Assembly (NCBI GenBank): GCA_015178975.1
Contig: WHVD01000018.1
Coordinates: forward strand, 1 to 64,000
Length of the DNA stretch: 64,000 bases
Direction of reading: 5' to 3'
Source: Hysterangium stoloniferum
Taxonomy: Eukaryota; Basidiomycota; Agaricomycetes; Hysterangiales; Hysterangiaceae
Part shown: piece by piece, positions 4,576 through 55,642 of the stretch
How the letters are laid out: every line of letters starts with the position of its first letter
Numbering within the stretch: the stretch's first letter is position 1
Position numbers and translations under genes: made by a program
Notes under the pieces: model-generated
Seen by the model: the letters and a program-made list of their open reading frames with translations, nothing else
Databases searched by the model: none
What the model was told of the DNA's origin: nothing

Positions 4576-6906
4576 ATGCCGAAGAACACGATACCGCCTC
4601 ATGATTTCCGCCCAAAAACACCACCATCTCGTCCTACCACAGATCCTACCAAGTTGGGTGCCACCCCCATTCTAAAGAAGGAATCAACATCACAGGTGTA
4701 TTCTTCCTGGCATGTAGCAAGAGATGAAAGGATCACCGTGATGTGGCACGAAATATCTGGGCGAGTAGTCGGTCCCGTCAGAGTAGGGGATTTCTTGAAT
4801 CGATATCTCCCTAAAGCTCCCAAACCCTGTCCGAATCATCATACCAACAAAACAGAGAAAAAACATACAACTTTCAGTGGATCTAAAAGAGAGGTTGACA
4901 TGTACAAGTCCTGGGTACGTTATTTTGTTGTGCCTTTTGGTTCATTGGAATTTATTTAGGATATAGATTGATTTGGTTGGGAGATTTTGTCCTAACCTTG
5001 AGCTTGTGGACACTCACAGCACACCTGCGGTGGACTTCGGAGGGAAACAAGTCAAGCCAGACATACAAATCTATTCTGCCAATTGCAGGCGATCGGGCCT
5101 ATCAGATATGACACAGACAGAAATGATTGTTGAATTTAAATTAGCCCGTGGGGATGACGCGTTCAAAGATGATAATGGACCCAGTTTCTTCGAGCATAGT
5201 TCCGACGCTGCGCATGATACACTGGGTCAGATTACATTATATGCGACGGCACACCAAGCTGCACAATTCCGGACACATGTCTTCCTTGTCCTTGTCTTCC
5301 CCAAATATGCGAGATTCATGCGCTGGGATCGTAGTGGGGTTATCGTAACAGAAGAAGTCCCTTTTTCAAATCCCTCCTATGTGGAGTTCTTCTGGCGGTT
5401 CAATCATGCGAAACCTGATGTACGTGGTGTCGATACTACGGTCACAGAGTTTCCACACAACCACCCCGTCGCGGTAAAGGCTAAAAGGTCGCTTGGTGTC
5501 GAGGACGGTGACCGACTGTTTCAAGTTAAAGTTGATGCAAAAGGTGACACTTATGTATTTTGTTGTCCTACGTACATGGCTGTTGGATCCCCCCTTGGCC
5601 GGTCCACTCGTGTTTTCAAGGCCTACTGCGTGGAAACTGGGAAGTTGGTCCTTCTCAAAGATACATGGAGGGTCGTTTCGCCTAGTCAGAGCCCCGAACA
5701 CATAATATATGAGGAGCTGAAGAAAGATGGTGTGAGGAATGTCTGCACGTGCAAGGAGGGATGTGATGTGCTGGATCAGGTTACGAAGACACAGGATTGG
5801 TCAATGGCAAGACAGGTTTCTTCGCGATTGAGGTTATTGCGGCACTATCGACTGGTTTTGAACGAAATTGCAAGGTCTCTAACTGATTTTGGGAATACAA
5901 AAGAGATGGTGACTGCAGTGAGAGATGCCATGATAGGTATGTCTGTCTCTTAATGGAATTGGGGCTGACTCGTTTTCGACAGGGCATGGGGACGCTTATG
6001 ACAGGGCTAAAATTCTTCACAGAGATATCAGCTCAGGGAACATTCTTATCACTGACAGCGGGGGTGGATTGTTAATTGACTGGGATCTTTGCAAAAGGCT
6101 TCAAGATATATATCAAGGAGAAGCACACATTGAAAGGACTGTGAGTACCTCCCGCACTGTGAAAATGGTATGGGGAATTCTGAAGATTTGTTTGATGTTT
6201 TATTATCTGGTTCTGTGATGGACAGGGTACTTGGCAATTCATGGCTGCTCGGTTGCTAGTGATTCCCACCCAGGGGGAGGGAGCACCGATCCCTGATCGG
6301 GCGGACGACTTGGAGTCCTTCCTCTACGTCCTTGTCTGGATTGCCTTGAGATATACCGAGCATGGGTTTGTTAAGGGTGCGCTCATCAAAATGCTCCATG
6401 CAGCTTTCGATGACCATTACCTGGATCCTCACGGAGCGGCGAAAGGAGGAGATAGGAAGATAGTCGAAGTGTGCTTCTCCAACCCCTTTCAGATTTCTCG
6501 TTTATCCAATGTCCCATTGAAGGAGTTGATCAAAACATTGGCAAAAACAATTGCGGTACGATACGGGGAGGTGCCGAATGCAACAGAAATTGCTCAATAT
6601 AAAGAACTCTTTGAGAAGCAAGGGTCATCAGATGTCAAATCTGTAGCCCTCAGTAAACCAGTGGATAATAACATCATTCTTTCTGCACTCCGTGCTGGGG
6701 AGTACCTGAATAAGCTATCTGCCTTGGACCGCTCAGACTGGATGGAATTGGAATTAACGACTGCGTTACAGAAGAGTGGTTGGAATGCGCATAGTGGCCG
6801 TGTTCAGCGCGATCTATCCACTCCCCCTCCCACACAGCCTATGGTGCCCAAGAGGGAGTATTCTGAGGGTGGTGCTGGTCCAATCTCAGGGAACCGCTTT
6901 TGCTAG
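4576..6906 (+). CDS. FunK1 fungal-type protein kinase, 4 exons
   Basis: Exons are 4576-4914, 4967-5936, 5983-6140 and 6226-6906, separated by 52, 46 and 85 bp GT-AG introns in matching phase. They give 715 residues. The kinase core is clear: catalytic loop HRDISSGNIL (residues about 449-458), a DWDLCK motif at about 469-474 in place of DFG, then GTWQFMAARLL and the DDLESFLYVLVWIAL helix typical of FunK1. The N-terminal half (about residues 100-400) is the usual FunK1 pre-kinase region, with ELVDTHSTPAVDFGG near its start. FunK1 kinases are eukaryotic-type kinases expanded in multicellular fungi; substrates are largely unknown. Length and motifs are complete, so it looks functional. Hydrophobic segments are absent, suggesting a soluble protein. 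Confidence 0.88.
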
Positions 6907-7130
6907 TGGCACAAGGTACTTACATATCTGTATGCAATCGATTGTGACTCTTAGTATTTTGTTGAATGCCCTGAATGTAATATGACTACTCACTTTCAAA
7001 ATATGTTGAAATACAATTTGTCTCAGGCAAAATATCTTTCTTATTATATTCACAGAGCTAATCCCAGAGGGGATTTGAGCCTTTGAGCATCCACCATCGT
7101 CTTGCTGTATGGACATCGACAAATCCGAAC

Positions 7131-7148
7131 CAGTAGGGAAACCTGCTG
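7131..7148 (+). ncRNA. Conserved GAAA-tetraloop hairpin, copy 1
   Basis: CAGTAGG pairs with CCTGCTG around a GAAA loop, including one U-G wobble. The equivalent stem in copy 2 (55211-55226) has C-G at that position, so pairing is kept while sequence changes. That is what a selected RNA structure would show, though two copies are thin evidence. Confidence 0.55.
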
Positions 7149-7306
7149 GCCTCGGTACTCGCTCCAAACTGTATACTACCCACCACTGGGTCACCAAGAT
7201 TCTCAGAGTTCAATGCATGTGTAGGTCAGCACGAATCGTCTATCTTATCACTCCTTTTGGACCAGGCTTAGTAGTAGACTCCTAATCAGTAATTCTGGAT
7301 GGGCGA

Positions 7307-7359
7307 AACGGTCGGGGTAGGGGTATCCCCCTGATGAGAGCTCTCGGCTCGAAACCGTT
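7307..7359 (+). ncRNA. Type III hammerhead ribozyme, copy 1
   Basis: All parts of a self-cleaving hammerhead are present. Stem III is 7307-7312 with 7354-7359 (6 bp, including the A-U pair next to the core). The cleavage triplet is GUC, with the cut after C7313. Stem I is GGGG 7314-7317 with CCCC 7327-7330. The core CUGAUGA is 7331-7337. Stem II is GAGC 7338-7341 with GCUC 7347-7350, closing a 5-nt loop. GAAA is 7351-7354. Stem III is the open stem, so it is type III. No invariant core base is altered, so cleavage activity is expected but not shown. Confidence 0.88.
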
Positions 7360-7510
7360 ACTATCCTGTTTCCCCTAGCCACCCTCTACACTAGCTGACA
7401 AAGTTCAATCTTCGGAGACAACTGTTTGTGGCGAGTGATAAGGTGATGGTCCGCCCAGCGGCGCTCTGGTGGACACTGGTGACCCTGCGTTGTCATGGTC
7501 ACCTGGCTAA

Positions 7511-7866
7511 TATATTTAGAAAATTGGGCGCTAGTACAGGGACAGATGCCCTGCATTGACGCCCATCTCAGAGGGGGGTTCATTTTCTAGAGTGGCATCG
7601 CGACTTTTTATCCACAGGCTAAGTTCTAATTTTTGCTGGAAAAAAAAAAAGACGGGTAAATAAAAGTTATGTGGATGTATATGTATCGAAATAATAATAT
7701 ATAGATATATAATATAATATAGAGGGTCCTTTTTTGACGGGTTCGTGGCACAAGGGGTTTTAATTAATATTTCAATTCACAGATAACAGCTTCTAGGTAT
7801 GTAAACAAATGATGATTTCCAGTAATTCTGTTAAAAGTGAAGCACTAGGATATTCCTCTGATTCAT
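7511..7866. other. AT-rich intergenic sequence
   Basis: It holds an A-run near 7640 and an (AT)n-like low-complexity tract near 7690-7722. No gene or clear repeat boundary is visible. Confidence 0.5.
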
Positions 7867-15033: not shown

Positions 15034-18000
15034 CTAACCTTGGCATCCTTGCCAATGTTTTCCATGGGCCATACAACTCAAGTCAAGCTCAATAGCTTTT
15101 CGGGAGATAATAAGTCTAGTAAATGGGGTATAAAATGGCTCTCGAGAACCAGGTGGTACCCAAAATAAAAGCCGGTTGTTGGGTCCCTTCATCCATCCTT
15201 CACTATCCAGTGTGAATGAAGTCCGCCAGTAATCTGTTAAGGAGATACCTTTCAGAAGCTGCGCCATGTCACAAAGTGCATGACCACTGCACGATGAAAA
15301 GCTAACTGAGAGTCGCATGATGACGCCGGAAAGCTGGATGGTCTTGTCACCAGAACCGGACACGATCCCAGTCCCGTCAGACGAAAACGAGACCGAAGAA
15401 ACCGAATCCCTGTGTCCCTCCAACGGCTCCTGCAACGGCTTTCCCGTCGCCGCATCCCAGAGCCGGATGGTCTTGTCATAAGAACCGGACACGATCCGAG
15501 TCCCGTCAGGCGAAAACGAGACCGAATAAACCGAAGACGTGTGTCCCTTTAACGGCTCCTGCAACGGCTTTCCCGTCGCCACATCCCAGAGCCGGATGGT
15601 CTTGTCACGAGAACCGGACACGATCCGAGTCCCGTCAGGGGAAAACGAGACCGAATAAACCGAAGACGTGTGTCCCTCCAACGGCTCCTGCAACGGCTTT
15701 CCCGTCGCCGCATCCCAGAGCCGGATGGTCTTGTCACCAGAACCGGACACGATCCGAGTCCCGTCAGGCGAAAACGAGACCGAATAAACCGAAGACGTGT
15801 GTCCCTCCAACAGCTCCTGAAACGGCTTTCCCGTCGCCGCATCCCAGAGCCGGATGGTCTTGTCATAAGAACCGGACACGATCCGAGTCCCGTCAGGCGA
15901 AAACGAGACCGAACGAACCCAATCCGTGTGTCCCTCCAACGGCTCCTGCACCGGCTTTCCCGTCGCCGCATCCCAGAGCCGGATGGTCTTGTCACGAGAG
16001 CCGGACACGATCCGAGTCCCGTCAGGCGAAAACGAGACCGAAGAAACCCAAGACGTGTGTCCCTCCAACGGCTCCTGCAACGGCTTTCCCGTCGCCGCAT
16101 CCCAGAGCCGGATGGTCTTGTCACCAGAACCGGACACGATCCGAGTCCCGTCAGGGGAAAACGAGACCGAATAAACCGAAGACGTGTGTCCCTGCAACGG
16201 CTCCTGCAACGGCTTTCCCGTCGCCGCATCCCAGAGCCGGATGGTGTTGTCACCAGAACCGGACACGATCCGAGTCCCGTCAGGCGAAAACGAGACCGAA
16301 TGAATACAATCCGTGTGTCCCTCCAACGGCTCCTGCAACGACTTTCCCGTCGCCGCATCCCAGAGCCGGATGGTCTTGTCACCAGAACCGGACACGATCC
16401 GAGTCCCGTCAGCGGAAAACGAGACCGAATGAATCCAATCCGTGTGTCCCTCCAACGGCTCCTGCAACGGCTTTCCCGTCGCCGCATCCCAGAGCCGGAT
16501 GGTCTTGTCATAAGAACCGGACACGATCCGAGTCCCGTCAGGCGACAACGAGACCGAAGAAACCGAAGACGTGTGTCCCTCCAACGGCTCCTGCAACGGC
16601 TTTCCCGTCGCCGCATCCCAGAGCCGGATGGTCTTGTCATAAGAACCGGACACGATCCGAGTCCCGTCAGGCGAAAACGAGACCGAAGAAACCGAAGACG
16701 TGTGTCCCTCCAACGGCTCCTGCAACGGCTTTCCGTCGCCGCATCCCAGAGCCGGATGGTGTTGTCACCAGAACCGGACACGATCCTCGTCCCGTCAGGC
16801 GAAAATGAGACCGAATGAATCCAATCCGTGTGTCCCTCCAACGGCTCCTGCAACGGCTTTCCCGTCGCCGCATCCCAGAGCCGGATGGTGTTGTCACCAG
16901 AACCCGACACGATCCGAGTCCCGTCAGGAGAAAACGAGACCGAATGAATCCAATCCGTGTGTCCCTCCAACGGCTCCTGCAACGGCTTTCCCGTCGCCGC
17001 ATCCCAGAGCCGGATGGTGTTGTCACCAGAACCGGACACGATCCGAGTCCCGTCAGGCGAAAACGAGACCGAAGAAACCCAAGACGTGTGTCCCTCCAAC
17101 GGCTCCTGCAACGGCTTTCCCGTCGCCGCATCCCAGAGCCGGATGGTCTTATCACCAGAACCGGACACGATCCCAGTCCCGTCAGGCGAAAACGAGACCG
17201 AATGAACCCAAGACGTGTGTCCCCGAACTACACTTTGAACAACCGGCCAGTTGAAATTATGCCCACAAGCCAATTGAAGAGTATTAGGATATTTTTCATT
17301 GAATTTGCGTGATATTATGCAGTTACTTGGCGACAATGGAAGTGCTGACAGGTATAGGTGCGGAGTGCTGTATGCAATCGCAACGCCAAACATCTGAATG
17401 AACCTGACAACATCTGATACAGTGGCAGAAACCTCTTTACATCCAGCATGCTCCTACCATGGTCCATTAGCATCTTCCATTGTTTCCATTATTAAACAAT
17501 AATCACTAACCTTTAGCCACTCAGCTATTCGCACAAGTTCTGCTGTGGTGTTACTCGTCAGAGCATCGGCAAGGCTGAGTGCTTCGAGCCAAAATAATAT
17601 ACATTTATCATTGACAAATGATGCCACTTCCTCAACCAGGCGTTTTTCGAGGGCAATTATTTCCTCCTCATTTACCGTTCCATCGCGCGGTGCTTCCAGA
17701 ATGTGTTTCGGCCAGAACCGGCATGAATACGATAGATGAGGAGAGATACATCTCTTGACGGTTTCCTGCAGGCCCGGAATCTGTGCATTGGGGTAGTACG
17801 ACGACTCTATCTCGCAAATGTTAAAACGAAGACCACGTTCTGAGTCAGCCATGACTTGCAACGACGCGAATGCAAGGTCATGTTGCACTTTCGAGACTTC
17901 AACAAAAAATTCTTTACTGAGATTCTTATCTGCCAAGAAATCACGAAATGATGCATGAAGAGGCCGGATGGGGGAAGACGAGTCAGTTACCCCACTCAGA

Positions 18001-20321
18001 AGTGAACCCATGTGGTTCACCACCAAGCCCACGTCATATCGGTCATTGCTGTCTGGGAATTGGGACCGCATGGCCTTCAAAGAAGCCAGGGGAAGAGGTT
18101 CGGCTGCGCCAAGCACTTGACTCATCACTGAACGGAACCTTGATAGGAATTTTGTACGTGGTGTGTCTTCACCTTTAACGCCCTTTACATCATCATCTGG
18201 CAAAATCTGTGACAGAATGAAGTGGTATAAGTTGTTAAGCTTTCGAGGACTGCGCAACATGATATCACGATATTGTTCCATAGGAGTCGAACCACGCGTG
18301 TCTTTGATATATTCGCAAGCAATCCGTGCCCACTCAAAAAGCCCTTCAGCCTTCTTCGCCAGAAATGTGAACTCGTCCTTTCCAAGACTGGTAATCTCTT
18401 TCAGCTTATGCTCGACATAAGTCCGGACGTCATGCTCTCCAGAGTCCTGTGGAATATCATCCATGGAAACTAGTTTGATGTGGTCGACTCCTTTGAACTT
18501 GTCTGATATGTCATCAAGGGGACGGGATGTGACGATGATCCGAAAATTGTCAGGAAGTTTAGTAACACTTGGAATGGCAGGATCATCGAGTTTGCTGGAC
18601 AAAACACGAAGGAGGTGCTCTCGCGTCGCAGCGTCTCCGCTTTCATCCAATGCATCCATGACAATGACTACAGGGCCCGTATGCTGCCCGTGCATTTTCT
18701 TGAGAGGTTCTATTAAAAGCTTGTGCCACTGCTGTACGGTGTCAACCGTACCCTTCAGTTGCGTGTTACCCTTAAGAGCGTTCGCCAGTGCTAGCATCAT
18801 CGCAGGATCGACATCCGCGAGGTCCCGAGCGATAGTCGAGAAGACTTTTTCGTGGCGCTGATCGCTTGCTCTGTTACGGTCGAAGCAGAAGCATGAACCG
18901 AGGGCGCCAACATCCTTGCACCACCGAGCTATCGTGTGAGCGATTGCTGATTTACCTTTGCCTGCAGGACCAGATAGCCACAGGATACGGGGAACGTCAC
19001 CTCCTGTCATGGAGATCCAACCAACGATATCCTTAAGGATCTCTTCACGTGTGTTCGGCAGGCATTGTTTCGTGGTGTTTAACCCAGCGCCACTTGCATA
19101 GACTATCCCGTTAATGTCGAGTGTTTCAGCTGGAGAGACAAATTAGTCAATATCCAGTCAAAGGCACGAAAGTTCCCTGCCTATGTGATGAACGAAGAGC
19201 TCTACGTCTCGAATGGCATTATCTCGGAACTGCTGCATGAGATCATCCAAGACCCTATTGTATTTTTGGATCACGTTGTCCGTCTCTGAGATAATGTTTT
19301 TACCGAGCCTATTCCCTGCCATACGATATGTGAATGAACGTCCGTGAAGCGCGGTAGGACATTGATGGTTGATTACTCACAGAACGTTTTGGTCTCCGAA
19401 TAACGACCGATGAAATCCGCACATTCGAGAGTTTGCTGAACCAGCTTCCCAAAGACAGCATCCATAGACGGGTTCTTGCGCAGCTTCTCTTGTTCTCCAG
19501 CCAGGAAATGGTAGACGCTACCCAGCTTTTTGAGTAGCTCAAGTATAGATGTGTCACGTTCCGCTTGGGCAAGTACCATCTGCGAGAAGTTTTAGGTAGA
19601 AATAAAATTCTGTATGGAAAAATGTACCCTAGAAGCAGCGGAAAGAATTCCCAAGGCCAGCTTGATATATGGATGGACCTAATCAAAAGAAAATGAGCTT
19701 TTCCATTCCAAGAAGCGACAAGACATACATCGCCGATCTCCTTTATCACACTGTCGAACACCTTGAGCGGCTGGAGGTACATCGTTTCAATGTTTTCCAA
19801 AGTATCAATGTCGCCCTCCACGGTACCAAGATAACTTGACACAGACTGGGGATGACCCTGAAGCGTTTTCATCTGACTTGTGCTGTGCTTGGCACCGTCA
19901 AGTGCCCGTTTTGCCTGCTCTGAACAGATTGACGTCTCGGGTGTAGGTCCACTGGAAGTCTCTTCCACCACTAGCAAATCCTAGATATTTGGTCAGATGA
20001 CCACGCAGCGGGATATGGTAAATCACCTACTTCAGTAGGACTAGTAGAGGGATGGGGGCAACCAGGTCTAGAACGACCAAAATACTTTGGAGATATCGGT
20101 GTCACAACAGTATACAGCATCCATCTGGACATACCAAACTATCCTTAACCGTGCGCAGGGATTGTTTGATGTGGCTTCTTAGCTGAGGTTGGTCGAGAAA
20201 TGCATCAGGAGATAAGCCTTCAAAATCAGATCTCAGAACTACCTACTCTTTGAAGACACTTTTCCTGCAAAACTGGAACACGAGAGTCACGCTGAGCGAG
20301 ATTATCATTGTCCTCACTCAT
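15034..20321 (-). CDS. NACHT-WD40 NLR-like protein (frameshifted)
   Basis: A NOD-like receptor of the fungal type. Minus-strand exons I infer: 20321-20243 and 20217-20135 (uncertain, see findings), 19980-19729, 19678-19628, 19579-19381, 19315-19181, 19129-17458 and 17403-15034. The NACHT domain has Walker A GPAGKGKS and Walker B VVIVMDALDESGD. The N-terminus is a helical region with IKLALGILSAAS and ECADFIGRYSE. Next comes QSTPHLYL-like IAYSTPHLYLSALP, then 15 WD40 repeats and the family's usual tail (KGPNNRLLFWVPPGSREPFY). Such proteins act in heterokaryon incompatibility and innate recognition; the repeats bind ligand and NACHT oligomerises. One base is missing near 16733 in repeat 4, so the annotated frame breaks there. 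Either the allele is damaged or the base is an assembly error. The 19181/19180 junction appears to be a GC-AG intron. Confidence 0.8.
15290..17225 (-). repeat. 15 WD40 repeats of 129 bp
   Basis: The array encodes 43-residue WD40 units of the form GHTxxxxSVSFSPDGTRIVSG, SxDxTIRLWDAATGKPLQEP, LE. Units differ almost only at a few positions: after GHT (SSVS, SSVY, SWVS, SWVH, DWIH, DCIH, DWVR) and before D in SxDKT (G, Y or R). Unit 15, nearest the C-terminus, is degenerate. Because 129 is a multiple of 3 and units lack stops, long shadow reading frames exist in other frames. High identity with change confined to predicted ligand-contact positions is the pattern known for concertedly evolving WD40 repeats of the HNWD family. 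Confidence 0.9.
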
Positions 20322-20357: not shown

Positions 20358-20485
20358 TGTTAAAAGTGTAGAAAATGAATGGCCAGACTGGGGATTGAAC
20401 CCAGGGCTTCTGCATATATAGCAGGGGTGTTAACCATTACACCACCTGACCCTGGGAAGCACTGCTAGCATTACTCAATCTAACA
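20358..20485 (-). repeat. TRIM long terminal repeat (3' LTR on minus)
   Basis: 128 bp, TGTTA...TAACA ends, appears base-for-base the same as 20641-20768. Contains a 71-nt tRNA-like domain. Confidence 0.88.
20381..20451 (-). tRNA. tRNA-like domain in LTR (Gln-like D arm)
   Basis: On the minus strand a cloverleaf can be drawn. The acceptor stem is GGTCAGG with TCTGGCC (7 bp, two wobbles). The D arm is GTGT/ACAC around AATGGTTA. The T arm is CTGGG/CCCAG with loop TTCAATC, and the variable region is short. The anticodon arm is poor: CTGC/GCAG around TATATAT, without the invariant U33. The D-arm sequence resembles tRNA-Gln. Both internal Pol III promoter boxes are intact. I regard it as a tRNA-derived promoter or structural module, not a working decoder. 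Confidence 0.5.
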
Positions 20486-20640: not shown

Positions 20641-20768
20641 TGTTAAAAGTGTAGAAAATGAATGGCCAGACTGGGGATTGAACCCAGGGCTTCTGCATAT
20701 ATAGCAGGGGTGTTAACCATTACACCACCTGACCCTGGGAAGCACTGCTAGCATTACTCAATCTAACA
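20641..20768 (-). repeat. TRIM long terminal repeat (5' LTR on minus)
   Basis: Appears identical to 20358-20485. Bordered on the right by the target duplication GGGCG. Confidence 0.88.
20664..20734 (-). tRNA. tRNA-like domain in LTR, second copy
   Basis: Same 71 nt as 20381-20451, carried by the other LTR; same fold and same weak anticodon arm. Confidence 0.5.
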
Positions 20769-30504: not shown

Positions 30505-33500
30505 ATGCCTAGTCTGACTGCTGCTACAGCGTTTATTGACCTCTATTATAATCCTATTTTTCCTGGTGCTCCCTGGAACTTTCCCCAATGGAAAGACATT
30601 TCAAACGTCCAACATGGACTCTTCTCAAACGATGATCAACTTCTTCCCAAAGGGATAAACCGACAGCAGTCTGACAGCATCCAATCCTACTTCCATCAAT
30701 ACAAAATCCTTGACCCGAACAAAAACAAGGCCAAGTTCTCTTCTAGTGACGATAAAAAGAAGGCGGTAGTTATGGGTCGAAAATTTTGGAATGATTACAT
30801 CAAGACAAAATGGGTAACGTGACAGCTTCATGACAAAATCATCAGGGCATTCACCACATGTGGCATTCATCCTCTCACTATCTTTGTTGCCAAAGGTATG
30901 GATCAATGGCCTAACGCAGACACGTATATCCCAGCAGCAGTGGAGACAATTGCAATCCAACTTTTTGGACTGGACACCTTCAGTTCCAATGATCATCTGC
31001 ATAGTCAAATCCGCAGATCTATACAAACTTTTGCTCAACGTTCTTGGCTAAGAATCCGAGTCAAGGCCAAGAGAGACCAGCATGATATGAGAAAGTTAGA
31101 AAATGAGGCGATCAAGGCATTCAAAGGTCATACATCGTCCTCATTTCATTCTTCATTTATCTCTAACCAACCTTTCTATAGATCTTGATCAGGATGACGT
31201 TACAAAGGGGAAAATAATTCAGACCATACGTGCCGTTGCAAAATGGAAAGAGATTGCGGATACTTACGATACTAAGAGCAATCAGGATAAGGCCGCAGAG
31301 ATGTTAGGTGAGACTGAGTGCTTATTAGAGAATATTGGCATCAAGGGTGCAGGGGAACCCAAGACCAAAAGGACTGGGCCACAAAGACGTATGTACACCA
31401 TTTTCACACCATGTATCAGATTCTGAAACAGCCGTTTAGGGCTATTCTGGAACAATTCCACCCTATTCATCAATATGGCCACTGAAAAGGACTTAGAAGA
31501 GTTATCCCACCTTTATGAACGATATTTTAGTACATCCCAAGATGACAAGAATCCTTTACTCAATTATGAACGGCCAATTAGGTTTTCGTTGAACGATATA
31601 GAAAGTGGAGATATGGGAATGGAGAAGGAGTATAATCTCGATCCCAACACTCTTGCAGTGAATATCGGCTTCACCAGGGACAACCTTCCTCATCAATTCA
31701 TCTCTACTCGCCATGTCATGGGGAAGAATGCTTGGGATCAGCCAGAGCTTTTTGTCACAAAGCCAAATCCAGACTACCTTGTGGAAAATAGGCTGCACTG
31801 GCATCAAATAGCGGGCGTTCATTCCATCGCTAGAAACATTTTTACTCCTACCTCTGACCCTGACCACTGCTGCGGGATATTAATCTGTGATGAAGTGGGC
31901 CTCGGAAAGACTTCACTCACTATTGCAATCATCGCTTTCTTGAATCAGTCAATATCAATGCAGCAGCGAGGCCAACTGCCCCCAGTATTGGGTGAGTGCT
32001 CTCTTAATCAAAGGTGTTCCCCCATGCTTATAATTACAATCACAGCCGATCGTAAATATCTTAATGGGCATCACACAATTCCAGCATTGCCCCATTTGAT
32101 CGTCGCCCCTGGAACACTGAGAGGTCAGTGGATAAAGGAACTTAAATCAATGTTCCTTCCCAGAAGTGTCGATATTCTAGTGTATGAATGTCCCAGGAAG
32201 GGAAACCCGGATTTCTGGAGCATTAGTGGGCCAATTTTAAACTCGGTACATGAACCACAAAATATCATTGTGGTCACAAGTCATTCCAGTCTTCAGAACG
32301 AGTATCAGCAACTTCACAAGTCTAGACCTGAGCGGGGGAAGCGCTCTTGGGAACTTCCAAATCAGAAGAGCAGTGCGACTACATATGACACTTTTCAGTC
32401 AGGATTGGCTGATGGTGAGCCTGGACGAGGCTCACGAGATGCGAAGCATCAGTGTTAAGTATTATTCTGCTTTTGCCCTCTTCAAGCAGGCCGTGGTGAA
32501 GATCACATTAACAGGCACTCCTTTGCAGACTTCACCGAGGGTAAGTACAATCGTACAACTTGTATCGTCTAATCTAACAGTTTTTCTTCAGGATATATCT
32601 GCTCTAGGTCAACTGATTGGGCTAAAAAGTTTTATGACGGAAGAATTCCACAATCAGGAAAAAGACGACAATGCCGCCATTCACCAAGCCAAGAAGTATG
32701 ATGATAATGGCGAATCTATGAGGAAGGCACAGATTAAGGCAGTTAGAAAAATGCACAGGATGTTTGCAGGCCATATTCTACGCCGTGTCCCAGATAGCAA
32801 GGATTGGGAAGGCAAGAAACTGCTCGATATACCTCCTTACAAAGATATAATTGGAATCCTAACGCTGACAGAGCGTGAGAATGAAATCCTCAAGGATTGT
32901 GCAGAGATGGCTAGAACATGGTACCATCACTGTGCTTGCTGTATTATTCAGGCTAAAGAAAACATTACCAGTGTCCTGAGTGCAAATGAAACCGGAAAAT
33001 TGCAAACAAAGGTGAGTCATCCAGTAACATTTAACTGTCATCTGTGCTGGCTGACGTGTTACCCTTAGAAATTTTACTACGAATACCGAAGTGCAGTTTC
33101 TTATGCGCAGGAAGATACAGAAGCCCAATTACCTGAGTTTCAGACTTTAGGAGATTGGGAGCCAGTGAAATCAACAAAGATGGATGTCTATGCCAAAATA
33201 TGCAAGCACTATCTCTCTGACGATAATATTCCTGATGTGGAATTCAACGAGGGCATTCCCATTTTCCCAAGACTGGAGGTGCCATCTCAGATAATGAATA
33301 GGAGGATACTTATCTATTCAGAGTCCCCAATCGTAACCCGCTTGCTCCGTAATGTTAGAAAAGAAAATTTGACTCGATTTATATCCTGCTAATGATGTGG
33401 TTCGACAGGTATTGGAACTGTATGGGATCAAGAGCCTTTCTATTGATGGAAAGGATGACTTTGATCTACGAGATGTAACTGTGGATGAATTCCATAAACC

Positions 33501-46261: not shown

Positions 46262-49135
46262 AAGGTGTGTGTGCACAGTTGTTCATCCTGGATAAACAGC
46301 TGCATCTACATAACAAGCTTCAGCACTAAAGTTGCCTGTGTGCAGGTGTTCATCCTGGATGAACACCTGCATACGCACAATACAGGTAGCTTTGGCACTA
46401 AAGTTGGCTGTGTACGGGTGTTCATCCTGGATGAACACCTGCATATGTGCAATACAGGCAGCTTCGGCGCTAAAGTTGCCTGTGCAAGGGTGTTCATCCT
46501 GGATGAACACCTGCATATGCGCAACACAGGCAGCTTCGGCGCTAAAGTTGCCTGTGCAAGAGTGTTCATCCTGGATGAACACCTGCATATGCACAACACA
46601 GGCAGCTTCGGCACTAAAGTTGCCTGTGCACGGGTGTTCATCCTGGATGAACACCTGCATATGCGCAATACAGGCAGCTTCGGCGCTAAAGTTGCCTGTG
46701 CAAGGGTGTTCATCCTGGATGAACACCTGCATATGCGCATTGCAGGCAGCTTCGGCGCTAAAGTTGCCTGTGCAAGGGTGTTCATCCTGGATGAACACCT
46801 GCATATGTGCAACACAGGCAGCTTCGGCGCTAAAGTTGCCTGTGCAAGGGTGTTCATCCTGGATGAACACCTGCATATGCGCATTGCAGGCAGCTTCGGC
46901 GCTAAAGTTGCCTGTGCAAGGGTGTTCATCCTGGATGAACACCTGCATATGTGCAACACAGGCAGCTTCGGCGCTAAAGTTGCCTGTGCAAGGGTGTTCA
47001 TCCTGGATGAACACCTGCATATGCGCAATACAGGCAGCTTCGGCACTAAAGTTGCCTGTGCAAGAGTGTTCATCCTGGATGAACACCTGCATATGCGCAT
47101 TGCAGGCAGCTTCGGCGCTAAAGTTGCCTGTGCAAGGGTGTTCATCCTGGATGAACACCTGCATATGTGCAACACAGGCAGCTTCGGCGCTAAAGTTGCC
47201 TGTGCAAGGGTGTTCATCCTGGATGAACACCTGCATATGCGCAATACAGGCAGCTTCGGCACTAAAGTTGCCTGTGCAAGGGTGTTCATCCTGGATGAAC
47301 ACCTGCATATGCGCATTGCAGGCAGCTTCGGCGCTAAAGTTGCCTGTGCACGGGTGTTCATCCTGGATGAACACCTGCATATGCGCATTGCAGGCAGCTT
47401 CGGTGCTAAAGTTGCCTGTGCACGGGTGTTCATCCTGGATGAACACCTGCATACGCGCAACACAGGCAGCTTCGGTGCTAAAGTTGCCTGTGCAAGGGTG
47501 TTCATCCTGGATGAACACCTGCATATGTGCAACACAGGCAGCTTCGGCGCTAAAGTTGCCTGTGCAAGGGTGTTCATCCTGGATGAACACCTGCATACGC
47601 GCAACACAGGTAGCTTCGGCGCTAAAGTTGCCTGTGCACGGGTGTTCATCCTGGATGAACACCTGCATACACGCAACACAGGCAGCTTCGGTGCTAAAGT
47701 TGCCTGTGCACGAGTGTTCATCCTGGATGAACACCTGCATATGTGCAACACAGGCAGCTTCGGCGCTAAAGTTGCCTGTGCAAGGGTGTTCATCCTGGAT
47801 GAACACCTGCATACGCGCAACACAGGTAGCTTCGGCGCTAAAGTTGCCTGTGCACGGGTGTTCATCCTGGATGAACACCTGCATACACGCAACACAGGCA
47901 GCTTCGGTGCTAAAGTTGCCTGTGCACGAGTGTTCATCCTGGATGAACACCTGCATATGTGCAACACAGGCAGCTTCGGCGCTAAAGTTGCCTGTGCAAG
48001 GGTGTTCATCCTGGATGAACACCTGCATACGCGCAACACAGGTAGCTTCGGTGCTAAAGTTGCCTGTGCACGGGTGTTCATCCTGGATGAACACCTGCAT
48101 ACACGCAACACAGGCAGCTTCGGTGCTAAAGTTGCCTGTGCACGGGTGTTCATCCTGGATGAACACCCGCATACATGCAATACAGGCAGCTTCGGCACTA
48201 AAGTTGCCTGTGCAAGGGTGTTCATCCTGGATGAACACCTGCATACGCGCAACACAGGCAGCTTCTGTGCTAAAGTTGCCTGTGCACGGGTGTTCATCCT
48301 GGATGAACACCTGCATATGTGCAACACAGGCAGCTTCGGCGCTAAAGTTGCCTGTGCAAGGGTGTTCATCCTGGATGAACACCTGCATACGCGCAACACA
48401 GGTAGCTTCGGCGCTAAAGTTGCCTGTGCACGGGTGTTCATCCTGGATGAACACCTGCATACACGCAACACAGGCAGCTTCGGTGCTAAAGTTGCCTGTG
48501 CACGGGTGTTCATCCTGGATGAACACCCGCATACATGCAATACAGGCAGCTTCGGCACTAAAGTTGCCTGTGCAAGGGTGTTCATCCTGGATGAACACCT
48601 GCATATGCGCAACACAGGCAGCTTCGGCACTAAAGTTGCCTGTGCATGGGTGTTCATCCTGGATGAACACCTGCATACACGAGCGCCAAAGCTGCCTGTG
48701 CACGGGTGTTCATCCTGGATGAACACCCGTATACGCGCATCACAGGCAGCTTCGGCGCTAAAGTTGCCTGTGCAAGGGTGTTCATCCTGGATGAACACCT
48801 GCATATACGCAATACAGGCAGCTTCAGCGCTAAAGTTGCCTGTGCAAGGGTGTTCATCCTGGATGAACACCTGCATATGCGCAACACAGGTAGCTTCGGC
48901 GCTAAAGTTGCCTGTGCAAGAGTGTTCATCCTGGATGAACACCTGCATATGCACAACACAGGCAGCTTCGGCGCTAAAGTTGCCTGTGCAAGAGTGTTCA
49001 TCCTGGATGAACACCTGCATATGCGCATTGCAGGCAGCTTCGGCACTAAAGTTGCCTGTGCAAGGGTGTTCATCCTGGATGAACACCTGCATACACGCAA
49101 CTTTCGCCCTAGAGTAAAAGTTGCGTGCACATAGC
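46262..49135. repeat. 72-bp hairpin-forming satellite, ~39 copies
   Basis: Tandem 72-bp units; the last inner units are nearly identical and the outer ones diverge. Each unit contains GGTGTTCATCC and GGATGAACACC as a near-perfect palindrome (11-bp arms, one central T), and CACAGGC / GCCTGTG arms about 18 nt apart. Between about 47.5 and 48.5 kb units recur in sets of three (216 bp), told apart by CATATGTGC, CATACGCGC and CATACACGC. Because 72 is divisible by 3, four long frames stay open (two per strand, 796-950 codons). I consider these a by-product, not proteins. Flanks: Copia-rich DNA on the left, truncated Gypsy on the right. Confidence 0.9.
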
Positions 49136-55170: not shown

Positions 55171-55642
55171 TCCACCATCGTCTTACTGCATGGACATCGA
55201 CAGACGAGCTAGCAGGGAAACCTGCTGCCTCGCAGCACGACCTACGTCAGCTTCGGTGATCGTTGATCTCGGGTTAAAGCCTCTATCTCCTGACAGGTGT
55301 ACCACCCAACCGTATACTACCCACCATTGGGTCTCAAGATTCTTGATTTCGTTGCGCGCAAAGGTCGGCACGAATTCATTATCTTATCACTTCCTTTGGA
55401 CCAGGCTCAGTAGTAGACTCCTAAACAGTAACTCTAGAAGGACGAAACGGTAGGGGGTATCCCCCTGATGAGAGCTTTCGTCGGCTCGAAACCGTTACAG
55501 TCCGTTTCTCCTAGCCACCCTCTACTCTAGCTGACAAGGTTCAATCTTCGGAGACAACTGATTGCGGCGATTGATAAGTGGTCTGCCCAGCGGCGCTCCG
55601 GTGGACGCTGGTGACCATGCGTTGCCATGGTCACCTTGCTAA
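55171..55642 (+). mobile_element. Hammerhead-ribozyme element, copy 2
   Basis: Diverged homolog of 7090-7510 in the same orientation, 472 bp. It keeps the TCCACCATCGTCTT start, the GAAA hairpin (55211-55226), the ribozyme (55446-55496), a C-UUCG-G loop motif (TTCAATCTTCGG) and the terminal hairpin (GGTGACCATG at 55610 with CATGGTCACC, 10 bp), then CTAA at 55639-55642. It has an extra ~70 bp near 55233-55300. Non-coding. The start of the DUF2235 gene lies 440 bp downstream. Confidence 0.75.
55446..55496 (+). ncRNA. Type III hammerhead ribozyme, copy 2
   Basis: Stem III is 55446-55451 with 55491-55496 (6 bp). The cleavage triplet is GUA, with the cut after A55452 (any base but G is allowed). 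Stem I is GGGG 55453-55456 with CCCC 55461-55464. The core CUGAUGA is 55465-55471. Stem II is GAGC 55472-55475 with GCUC 55484-55487 around an 8-nt loop. GAAA is 55488-55491. Compared with copy 1 both loops and the cleavage-site base differ while every stem and core base is kept. Confidence 0.88.

Follow-up and report, generated by a model that had tools for sequence, protein, structure and literature searches.

In the papers cited here from partial texts (PMC7761336, PMC4918200), genomic hammerhead ribozymes are tied to retroelements. For example, plant LTR retrozymes possess two LTRs, a primer-binding site, a polypurine tract and 4-bp target duplications (Cervera et al. 2016, PMC4918200, partial text). 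A survey of Pleurotus ostreatus reports five Rfam Hammerhead_3 matches of 55 nt (PMC5040776, partial text), and another study, known from part of its text, filtered hammerhead matches out of its transcripts. The initial annotation of the locus described below called hammerheads sparsely described in fungal chromosomes, and the five type 3 matches of P. ostreatus fit that statement. Among the titles and abstract openings listed by searches of open-licence literature, none describes a hammerhead in a Helitron-like or fungal mobile element. Viroid-like circular RNAs are now reported from fungi. Here we describe a hammerhead-bearing repeat family in the genome of Hysterangium stoloniferum. Two of its copies lie in the window, the 64,000-nt stretch of contig WHVD01000018.1 (positions 1 to 64,000) that was analysed.

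Results

Hammerhead ribozymes in the window

The initial annotation placed a type III hammerhead ribozyme at 7307-7359 of the plus strand. All of its parts were found at the positions claimed, and both CUGAUGA and GAAA are intact. The features of the element and of the second copy are as follows.

7090-7510, plus strand: complete copy of the hammerhead-bearing mobile element, 421 bp, inserted at GAGCA^TATATT
7090-7096, plus strand: 5′ terminus TCCACCA, left arm of a 7-bp asymmetric inverted repeat (copy alignment)
7305-7361, plus strand: type III hammerhead ribozyme, model span with two flanking bases per side (RF00008, family model R1, grammar scan)
7307-7312 with 7354-7359, plus strand: stem III, 6 bp
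7313, plus strand: predicted cleavage base H17, C, end of the triplet GUC; cut expected 3′ of C7313
7314-7319 with 7324-7330, plus strand: stem I, four G-C pairs, a bulged U, then two pairs
7331-7337, plus strand: catalytic core CUGAUGA (sequence, copy alignment)
7338-7341 with 7347-7350, plus strand: stem II, 4 bp
7351-7354, plus strand: catalytic core GAAA (sequence, copy alignment)
7467-7473, plus strand: right arm of the same inverted repeat, TGGTGGA, 37 bp short of the 3′ end
7478-7503, plus strand: 3′ hairpin GGTGACC / GGTCACC with a 12-nt loop, followed by TGGCTAA (3′-end pattern, copy alignment)
55171-55642, plus strand: diverged second copy, subfamily B, 472 bp (5′-end pattern, sequence, alignment)
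55444-55498, plus strand: hammerhead of the second copy, triplet GUA, predicted cut after A55452 (RF00008, grammar scan, R1)

The Rfam type III model (RF00008), which the initial annotation had named as a check, agreed in extent and fell short in score. It aligned to 7306-7360 (55 nt) over model positions 1-54 of 54 with an E-value of 1.7e-5 (251-nt query against 4227 Rfam families); the score of 32.6 bits is below the gathering score of 48.5 bits, which is a curation cut-off and not a biochemical one. The scores for the second copy (32.8 bits, E 3.6e-5, full model) and for four further loci (30.2-31.9 bits) are below this value as well. Because 32.6 bits is less than 48.5, the hammerhead is absent from the scan of the 64-kb window at Rfam gathering scores, in which three tRNAs and no hammerhead are listed.

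We scanned the window with a grammar that requires CTGATGA, GAAA, UH and three helices. Two plus-strand sites (7313 and 55452) and no minus-strand site were obtained, and 300 dinucleotide shuffles of the window gave no site. The ribozyme at 7307-7359 has CUGAUGA, GAAA, a UH site and three helices and is open at stem III, which assigns it to type III. The family model R1 scored 81.2 bits for this hammerhead and 76.0 bits for that of the second copy, both copies being among the 18 rows from which R1 was built. A further, weak match by a hammerhead model at 30819-30884 (16.1 bits, E 0.041) has broken helices and was set aside as chance.

Nearest-neighbour folding, which ignores tertiary contacts, favours another structure (-19.8 kcal/mol versus -15.9 kcal/mol for the hammerhead fold); by this calculation the hammerhead lies about 4-6 kcal/mol above the optimum. 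The 66-nt hammerhead segment is of ordinary stability (z 0.24). The stem II loop of the window copy is 3 nt shorter than that of most aligned copies. In the subfamily A consensus of this segment, a GATGAGAG/CTCTCGTC hairpin could compete with the hammerhead fold and might form a switch. A genome-wide search with RF00008 at E 1e-3 gave no matches and is uninformative because control genomes likewise gave none. One exact hammerhead pattern had no matches in IMG/VR.

The window holds other features. Just upstream of the element, at 4967-6906 of the plus strand, there are open frames which we take to resemble a fungal FunK1-type kinase gene. At 15034-19142 of the minus strand, a NACHT domain frame adjoins a WD40 region with about 15 copies of a 129-bp unit (94% matches), which from its sequence looks like an NLR-like receptor with young repeats. 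The relatives of the NACHT protein, among 120 of 907 listed, include proteins of Suillus and Hygrophoropsis (48-58% identity), and the best match has 81% identity; judged by these relatives, the host would probably be placed among mushroom-forming fungi close to Boletales. Two identical tRNA genes, at 20380-20451 and 20663-20734 of the minus strand, lie 283 bp apart. At 46316-49101 there is a 72-bp tandem array of about 39 units with the internal palindrome GTGTTCATCCTGGATGAACAC.

The element and its copies

The initial annotation placed the hammerhead in an intergenic element. This was borne out: the hammerhead lies inside a dispersed, non-coding element with copies at many places in the fungal genome (111 Mb, 554 contigs), across which the ribozyme is constrained. 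When 7000-7740 was used as the genome query, 40 of 261 candidate matches were scored. Seven of the 40 span the whole stretch (the place in the window included), and the remaining 33 lie only within query bases 82-519. The seven copies of the whole stretch are nearly identical (97-100%), and none is more than about 8 kb from the end of its contig. Because all are near contig ends by the listed coordinates, the stretch surrounding the window copy is perhaps subtelomeric. The same stretch is also present in the genome without the element.

The ends of the element were determined from 45 rows with flanks and from the unoccupied paralogues of the window site (five aligned of eight listed). The window element runs from TCCACC at 7090 through GGCTAA at 7510, and the hammerhead is central. 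Its first 33 bases occur at 114 genome places at up to three mismatches, and the 3′-end pattern has 76 exact matches; the reversed control gave zero in each case. An exact pattern of core plus stem II, which the window's own subgroup does not fit, was found at 36 places (reversed control, zero). Among 20 copies fetched by the 5′ end alone, 14 have the 3′ end too, in a search that finds only copies with a 5′ end. Most aligned copies are 409-485 bp long, and there are at least two subfamilies.

Both ends are structured. Across 68 aligned copies, both arms of the inverted repeat are intact in 52, one arm in 14 and neither in two. TGGTGGA occurs in 25 of 5000 shuffles of the 50-nt 3′ segment. The arms of the 3′ hairpin stem are altered in nine of the 68 copies, and the next inner pair is A-T in 27, T-A in 20, T/T in 11 and C/T in one. 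The 3′ terminus is GCTAA in 38 copies (the window copy included), GCTAT in 27 and something else in three.

A head-to-tail junction pattern of the element had no exact match in the genome, and the closest same-strand 5′ ends are 14.6 kb apart among the 100 of 114 places listed. In copy L053 the 5′ end is doubled over 34 nt, 23 of which are element. Four longer copies contain no long open frame. By eye, the 1685-bp one of these contains an apparent inserted LTR, and copy L091 an apparent Tc1-like insertion. An internal tRNA-like promoter, also considered by eye, was dropped because subfamily B does not preserve its box. Folded as a circle, the unit has most of its bases paired (-134.3 kcal/mol), and its linear fold is only mildly more stable than those of shuffles (z -1.72); both values were computed on 7090-7511, one base more than the 421 nt of the element.

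Conservation of the ribozyme

In 62 of the 68 copies, all 12 core positions are unaltered. Three of the six altered cores have a change at a CpG, one has another substitution and two have gaps. The base before a hammerhead cut is, by the NUH rule, not G. As expected from this rule, H17 is C in 43 copies, A in 19, T in five, a gap in one and G in none. The 68 copies comprise 24 distinct helix rows, in which 354 of 366 pair cells are standard (96.7%). Both bases of a pair are changed in five cells at three pairs when all 68 rows are counted, and in four cells at three pairs when the 56 rows that were not found by the hammerhead pattern are counted. We also used 18 hand-picked copies, chosen to include rows with paired changes; here 97.5% of the pair cells are standard and seven cells are changed on both sides. 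None of 500 shuffles of this set reached the observed number of paired cells, of both-changed cells or the covariation score, whereas 21 reached the number of both-changed pairs and 161 the pair types. At one position the pairs changed on both sides are CpG sites, and separate CpG decay may account for part of them.

Substitution rates were compared inside and outside the hammerhead. Because copies found by the hammerhead pattern bias these rates, 12 such copies were left out of subfamily A, together with seven with duplicated flanks, so that 27 of 46 rows were kept. In these 27 copies, non-CpG substitutions number 4/1133 in the hammerhead versus 112/8760 elsewhere. In subfamily B they number 12/871 versus 465/7440 (20 copies; two of the 22 B-type rows were left out at first), and 16/955 versus 550/8150 when the two rows were restored, which gives all 22 non-A rows. 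Thus, non-CpG sites of the hammerhead are about fourfold less substituted than the remaining element, on cells that are not independent since the copies are related. In contrast, CpG sites have decayed alike inside and outside the ribozyme. Ranked among windows by conservation, the hammerhead is 7th of 427 in subfamily B and 101st of 370 in subfamily A, where it is not the best-kept stretch. The consensus sequences of A and B differ at 2 of 53 positions in the hammerhead versus 40 of 364 outside, which is not significant (p 0.14). The contrast between non-CpG and CpG sites would be expected if the ribozyme was required in master copies and copies, once inserted, were free to decay.

Insertion sites

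For 26 of the 37 distinct sites, the two flanks were joined and searched against the genome (13 + 13 sites). Because about 40 matches were listed for each search, unoccupied sites may have been missed. Unoccupied paralogues were found for at least seven of the 26 sites (the window, L009, L012, L015, L023, L042 and L054). Six of the seven are clean: once TCCACC...GGCTA and one further base (A or T) are removed, the flanks meet, nothing is lost and no target duplication reaches 2 bp. L009 has lost 11 bp. The junction is A^T at the window and T^T, G^T, T^G, T^T and G^T at the other five clean sites. The last base of the element equals the base preceding it at the window, L012 and L054, so a 1-bp duplication is possible at these three. 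It differs at L015, L023 and L042, the unoccupied copies of L042 varying by one base at the joint. We counted the last base to the element because on the whole it follows the subfamily.

A plant-type retrozyme context, which the initial annotation had listed, gained no support: none of the seven sites with unoccupied paralogues has a 4-bp target-site duplication, and there is no LTR pair among the 100 of 114 places listed. Over the 37 sites, the two flanks are more alike in direct orientation than permuted pairs: of 2000 permutations, 24, 38 and 0 reach the observed similarity for 15, 25 and 40 nt. The excess weakens when the repetitive sites L034 and L061 are removed (55, 401 and 20 of 2000). 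What is left is weak and of no fixed length, and where unoccupied paralogues exist it does not take the form of a duplication. Inverted similarity between the flanks is not significant overall (487, 337 and 974 of 2000). At one site (L030, G000:C441:1344954-1345379), the element lies in the middle of a near-palindrome with arms of about 17 bp, and the inverted similarity is striking.

Helitron-like features and resident RepHel genes

The way in which the element inserts resembles that of a Helitron. Insertion without target duplication was observed at six of the seven sites, a 1-bp duplication being possible at three of them, and the hairpin near the 3′ end and the asymmetric inverted repeat are those expected of Helitron2. 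The A^T insertion of Helitron1 was found at the window alone among the six clean sites. The window copy has the ends TC...CTAA, but 27 of the 68 copies have GCTAT instead of CTRR. The hairpin lies 3 nt from CTAA, versus about 12 nt in canonical Helitrons (PMC4289320, partial text). Because A^T insertion is not general, GCTAT ends occur and no RepHel partner with these ends was found, we did not file the element as a Helitron.

The Helitron_like_N domain has at least 151 matches in the genome, several of them in frames of over 1900 codons. No match among the 150 of 151 listed comes within 10 kb of any of the 76 3′ ends of the element; of the 100 listed 5′ ends, one has a match that close, at 9.2 kb and outside the element. 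No RepHel gene sharing the ends of the element was found among the resident RepHel termini, which were read in part. Another palindrome, noticed in a fetched flank, occurs at 101 genome places. Among the 100 listed, 22 follow a same-strand RepHel match at no more than 12 kb, nine of them at 3454-3477 bp. Because of this matching same-strand spacing, the palindrome probably marks the 3′ part of resident RepHel elements. TCCACCA is common to this palindrome and to the 5′ end of our element; its role differs between the two, and we take the coincidence as chance. RepHel matches about 7.1-7.2 kb apart on one strand (contigs C153, C2 and C63 of G000) may be head-to-tail Helitron arrays. Two of the C153 pieces, when compared, are only 77-89% alike.

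Discussion

The reading that we prefer, and to which we give about an even chance, is a non-coding, non-autonomous mobile element with a constrained central type III hammerhead, moved in trans by Helitron-type machinery and giving an RNA that cuts itself. The element would move as single-stranded or circular DNA by means of a rolling-circle RepHel or Helitron-type enzyme, and its RNA, as the initial annotation also predicted, would cut itself after C7313. A DNA circle is reported for a Fusarium Helitron (PMC5148889). Because the cleavage position, element base 224, falls midway along the unit, the cut would serve to process the RNA of the element and not to build the mobile DNA. Self-cleavage so far from both ends would break a linear RNA intermediate, and the position is compatible with movement at the DNA level or with an RNA circle. 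If transcription made more than one turn of a DNA circle, cleavage would yield RNA of unit length, which ligation could close into circles. We put forward only tentatively the fuller proposal that the element is a rolling-circle (Helitron-like) DNA transposon, the first with a conserved hammerhead, in which a DNA circle gives multimeric RNA and the ribozyme cuts it into unit circles.

It is rather unlikely that the circle is instead one of RNA, namely that a self-cut RNA of about 421 nt is ligated, reverse-transcribed by the enzyme of a resident retroelement and inserted without duplication, as a new type of fungal retrozyme. The constraint on the hammerhead is easiest to explain if propagation depends on the ribozyme. 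In the circular fold most of the unit is paired, and the hammerhead is on one strand only, as in retrozymes (PMC11721086, partial text). However, fixed ends far from the cleavage site demand a second site-specific step, the exact head-to-tail junction is absent genome-wide, the seven sites have no 4-bp duplication and the linear fold is only mildly more stable than those of shuffles. A SINE-like or Penelope-type retroposon whose transcripts are trimmed by the hammerhead is improbable. The element is small, non-coding and dispersed, and hammerheads are known in Penelope-like elements (PMC7761336, partial text); against this, the 3′ end is present in most copies that were fetched by their 5′ end, no tail is seen in the flanks and there are no clear duplications.

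That the ribozyme is an inert passenger, conserved through recent ancestry, would agree with the likeness of the subfamily A copies, with several other stretches that are equally well kept in that subfamily and with a hammerhead fold that is not the predicted optimum. We consider it quite improbable in view of the non-CpG contrast in subfamily B, where CpG decay is equal inside and outside the hammerhead, the absence of G at H17 and the changes on both sides of pairs. As a rule, LTRs have the ends TG...CA, and our element does not. No two-LTR arrangement occurs among the 100 listed 5′ ends, and the unoccupied sites, with no 4-bp duplication at any of the seven, already oppose an LTR. Thus, it is highly improbable that the element is a solo LTR of a plant-type LTR retrozyme, although the LTR size of 300-400 bp and the internal hammerhead would fit (PMC4918200, partial text).

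The constrained hammerhead and the clean insertion of this fungal family suggest that retroelements are not the only kind of hammerhead carrier and that there is a second. Judged from sequence, the element seems to insert cleanly, in which it differs from the known ribozyme-bearing retrotransposons, and it may be a new kind of carrier for hammerhead ribozymes that are predicted to cut. The family provides dozens of natural hammerhead variants for assay and a genomic source to examine for the viroid-like circular RNAs of fungi. If the reading with rolling-circle DNA and RNA is true, one element uses rolling circles at both levels and could itself be a genomic source of such RNAs.

Among known systems, plant LTR retrozymes are likewise non-coding and non-autonomous, with a type III hammerhead in a repeat of 300-400 bp; the LTR pair and the 4-bp duplication are theirs, and neither is seen for our element (PMC4918200). 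Animal non-LTR retrozymes are likewise small, hammerhead-bearing repeats without protein (PMC7761336). However, they carry type I hammerheads and are usually in tandem, whereas our element has a type III hammerhead, fixed ends and no head-to-tail arrangement that we found. The Hammerhead_3 matches of P. ostreatus are also type III matches of 55 nt in a mushroom genome, the same length as the Rfam match in the window; the likeness is by description and not by sequence, and the part of that paper used here describes no element, copies or insertion sites (PMC5040776). The Helitrons of P. ostreatus share with our element the lack of duplication, the T[C/G] start and a hairpin near the 3′ end, but our element matches their A^T insertion and CTRR end only in part, and the HELPO families are larger than our family (PMC4289320). 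For the Helitron2-like elements of Fusarium and for HINEs, the parts of the papers used here describe no ribozyme, and for our element no RepHel with the same ends was found (PMC5148889, PMC4067079). Nevertheless, these elements share with ours the absence of target duplication, the TC start (FoHeli1/2), an asymmetric or subterminal inverted repeat and a 3′ hairpin or palindrome. Moreover, multiple 5′ termini are reported for Fusarium Helitrons, to which the doubled 5′ end of L053 can be likened.
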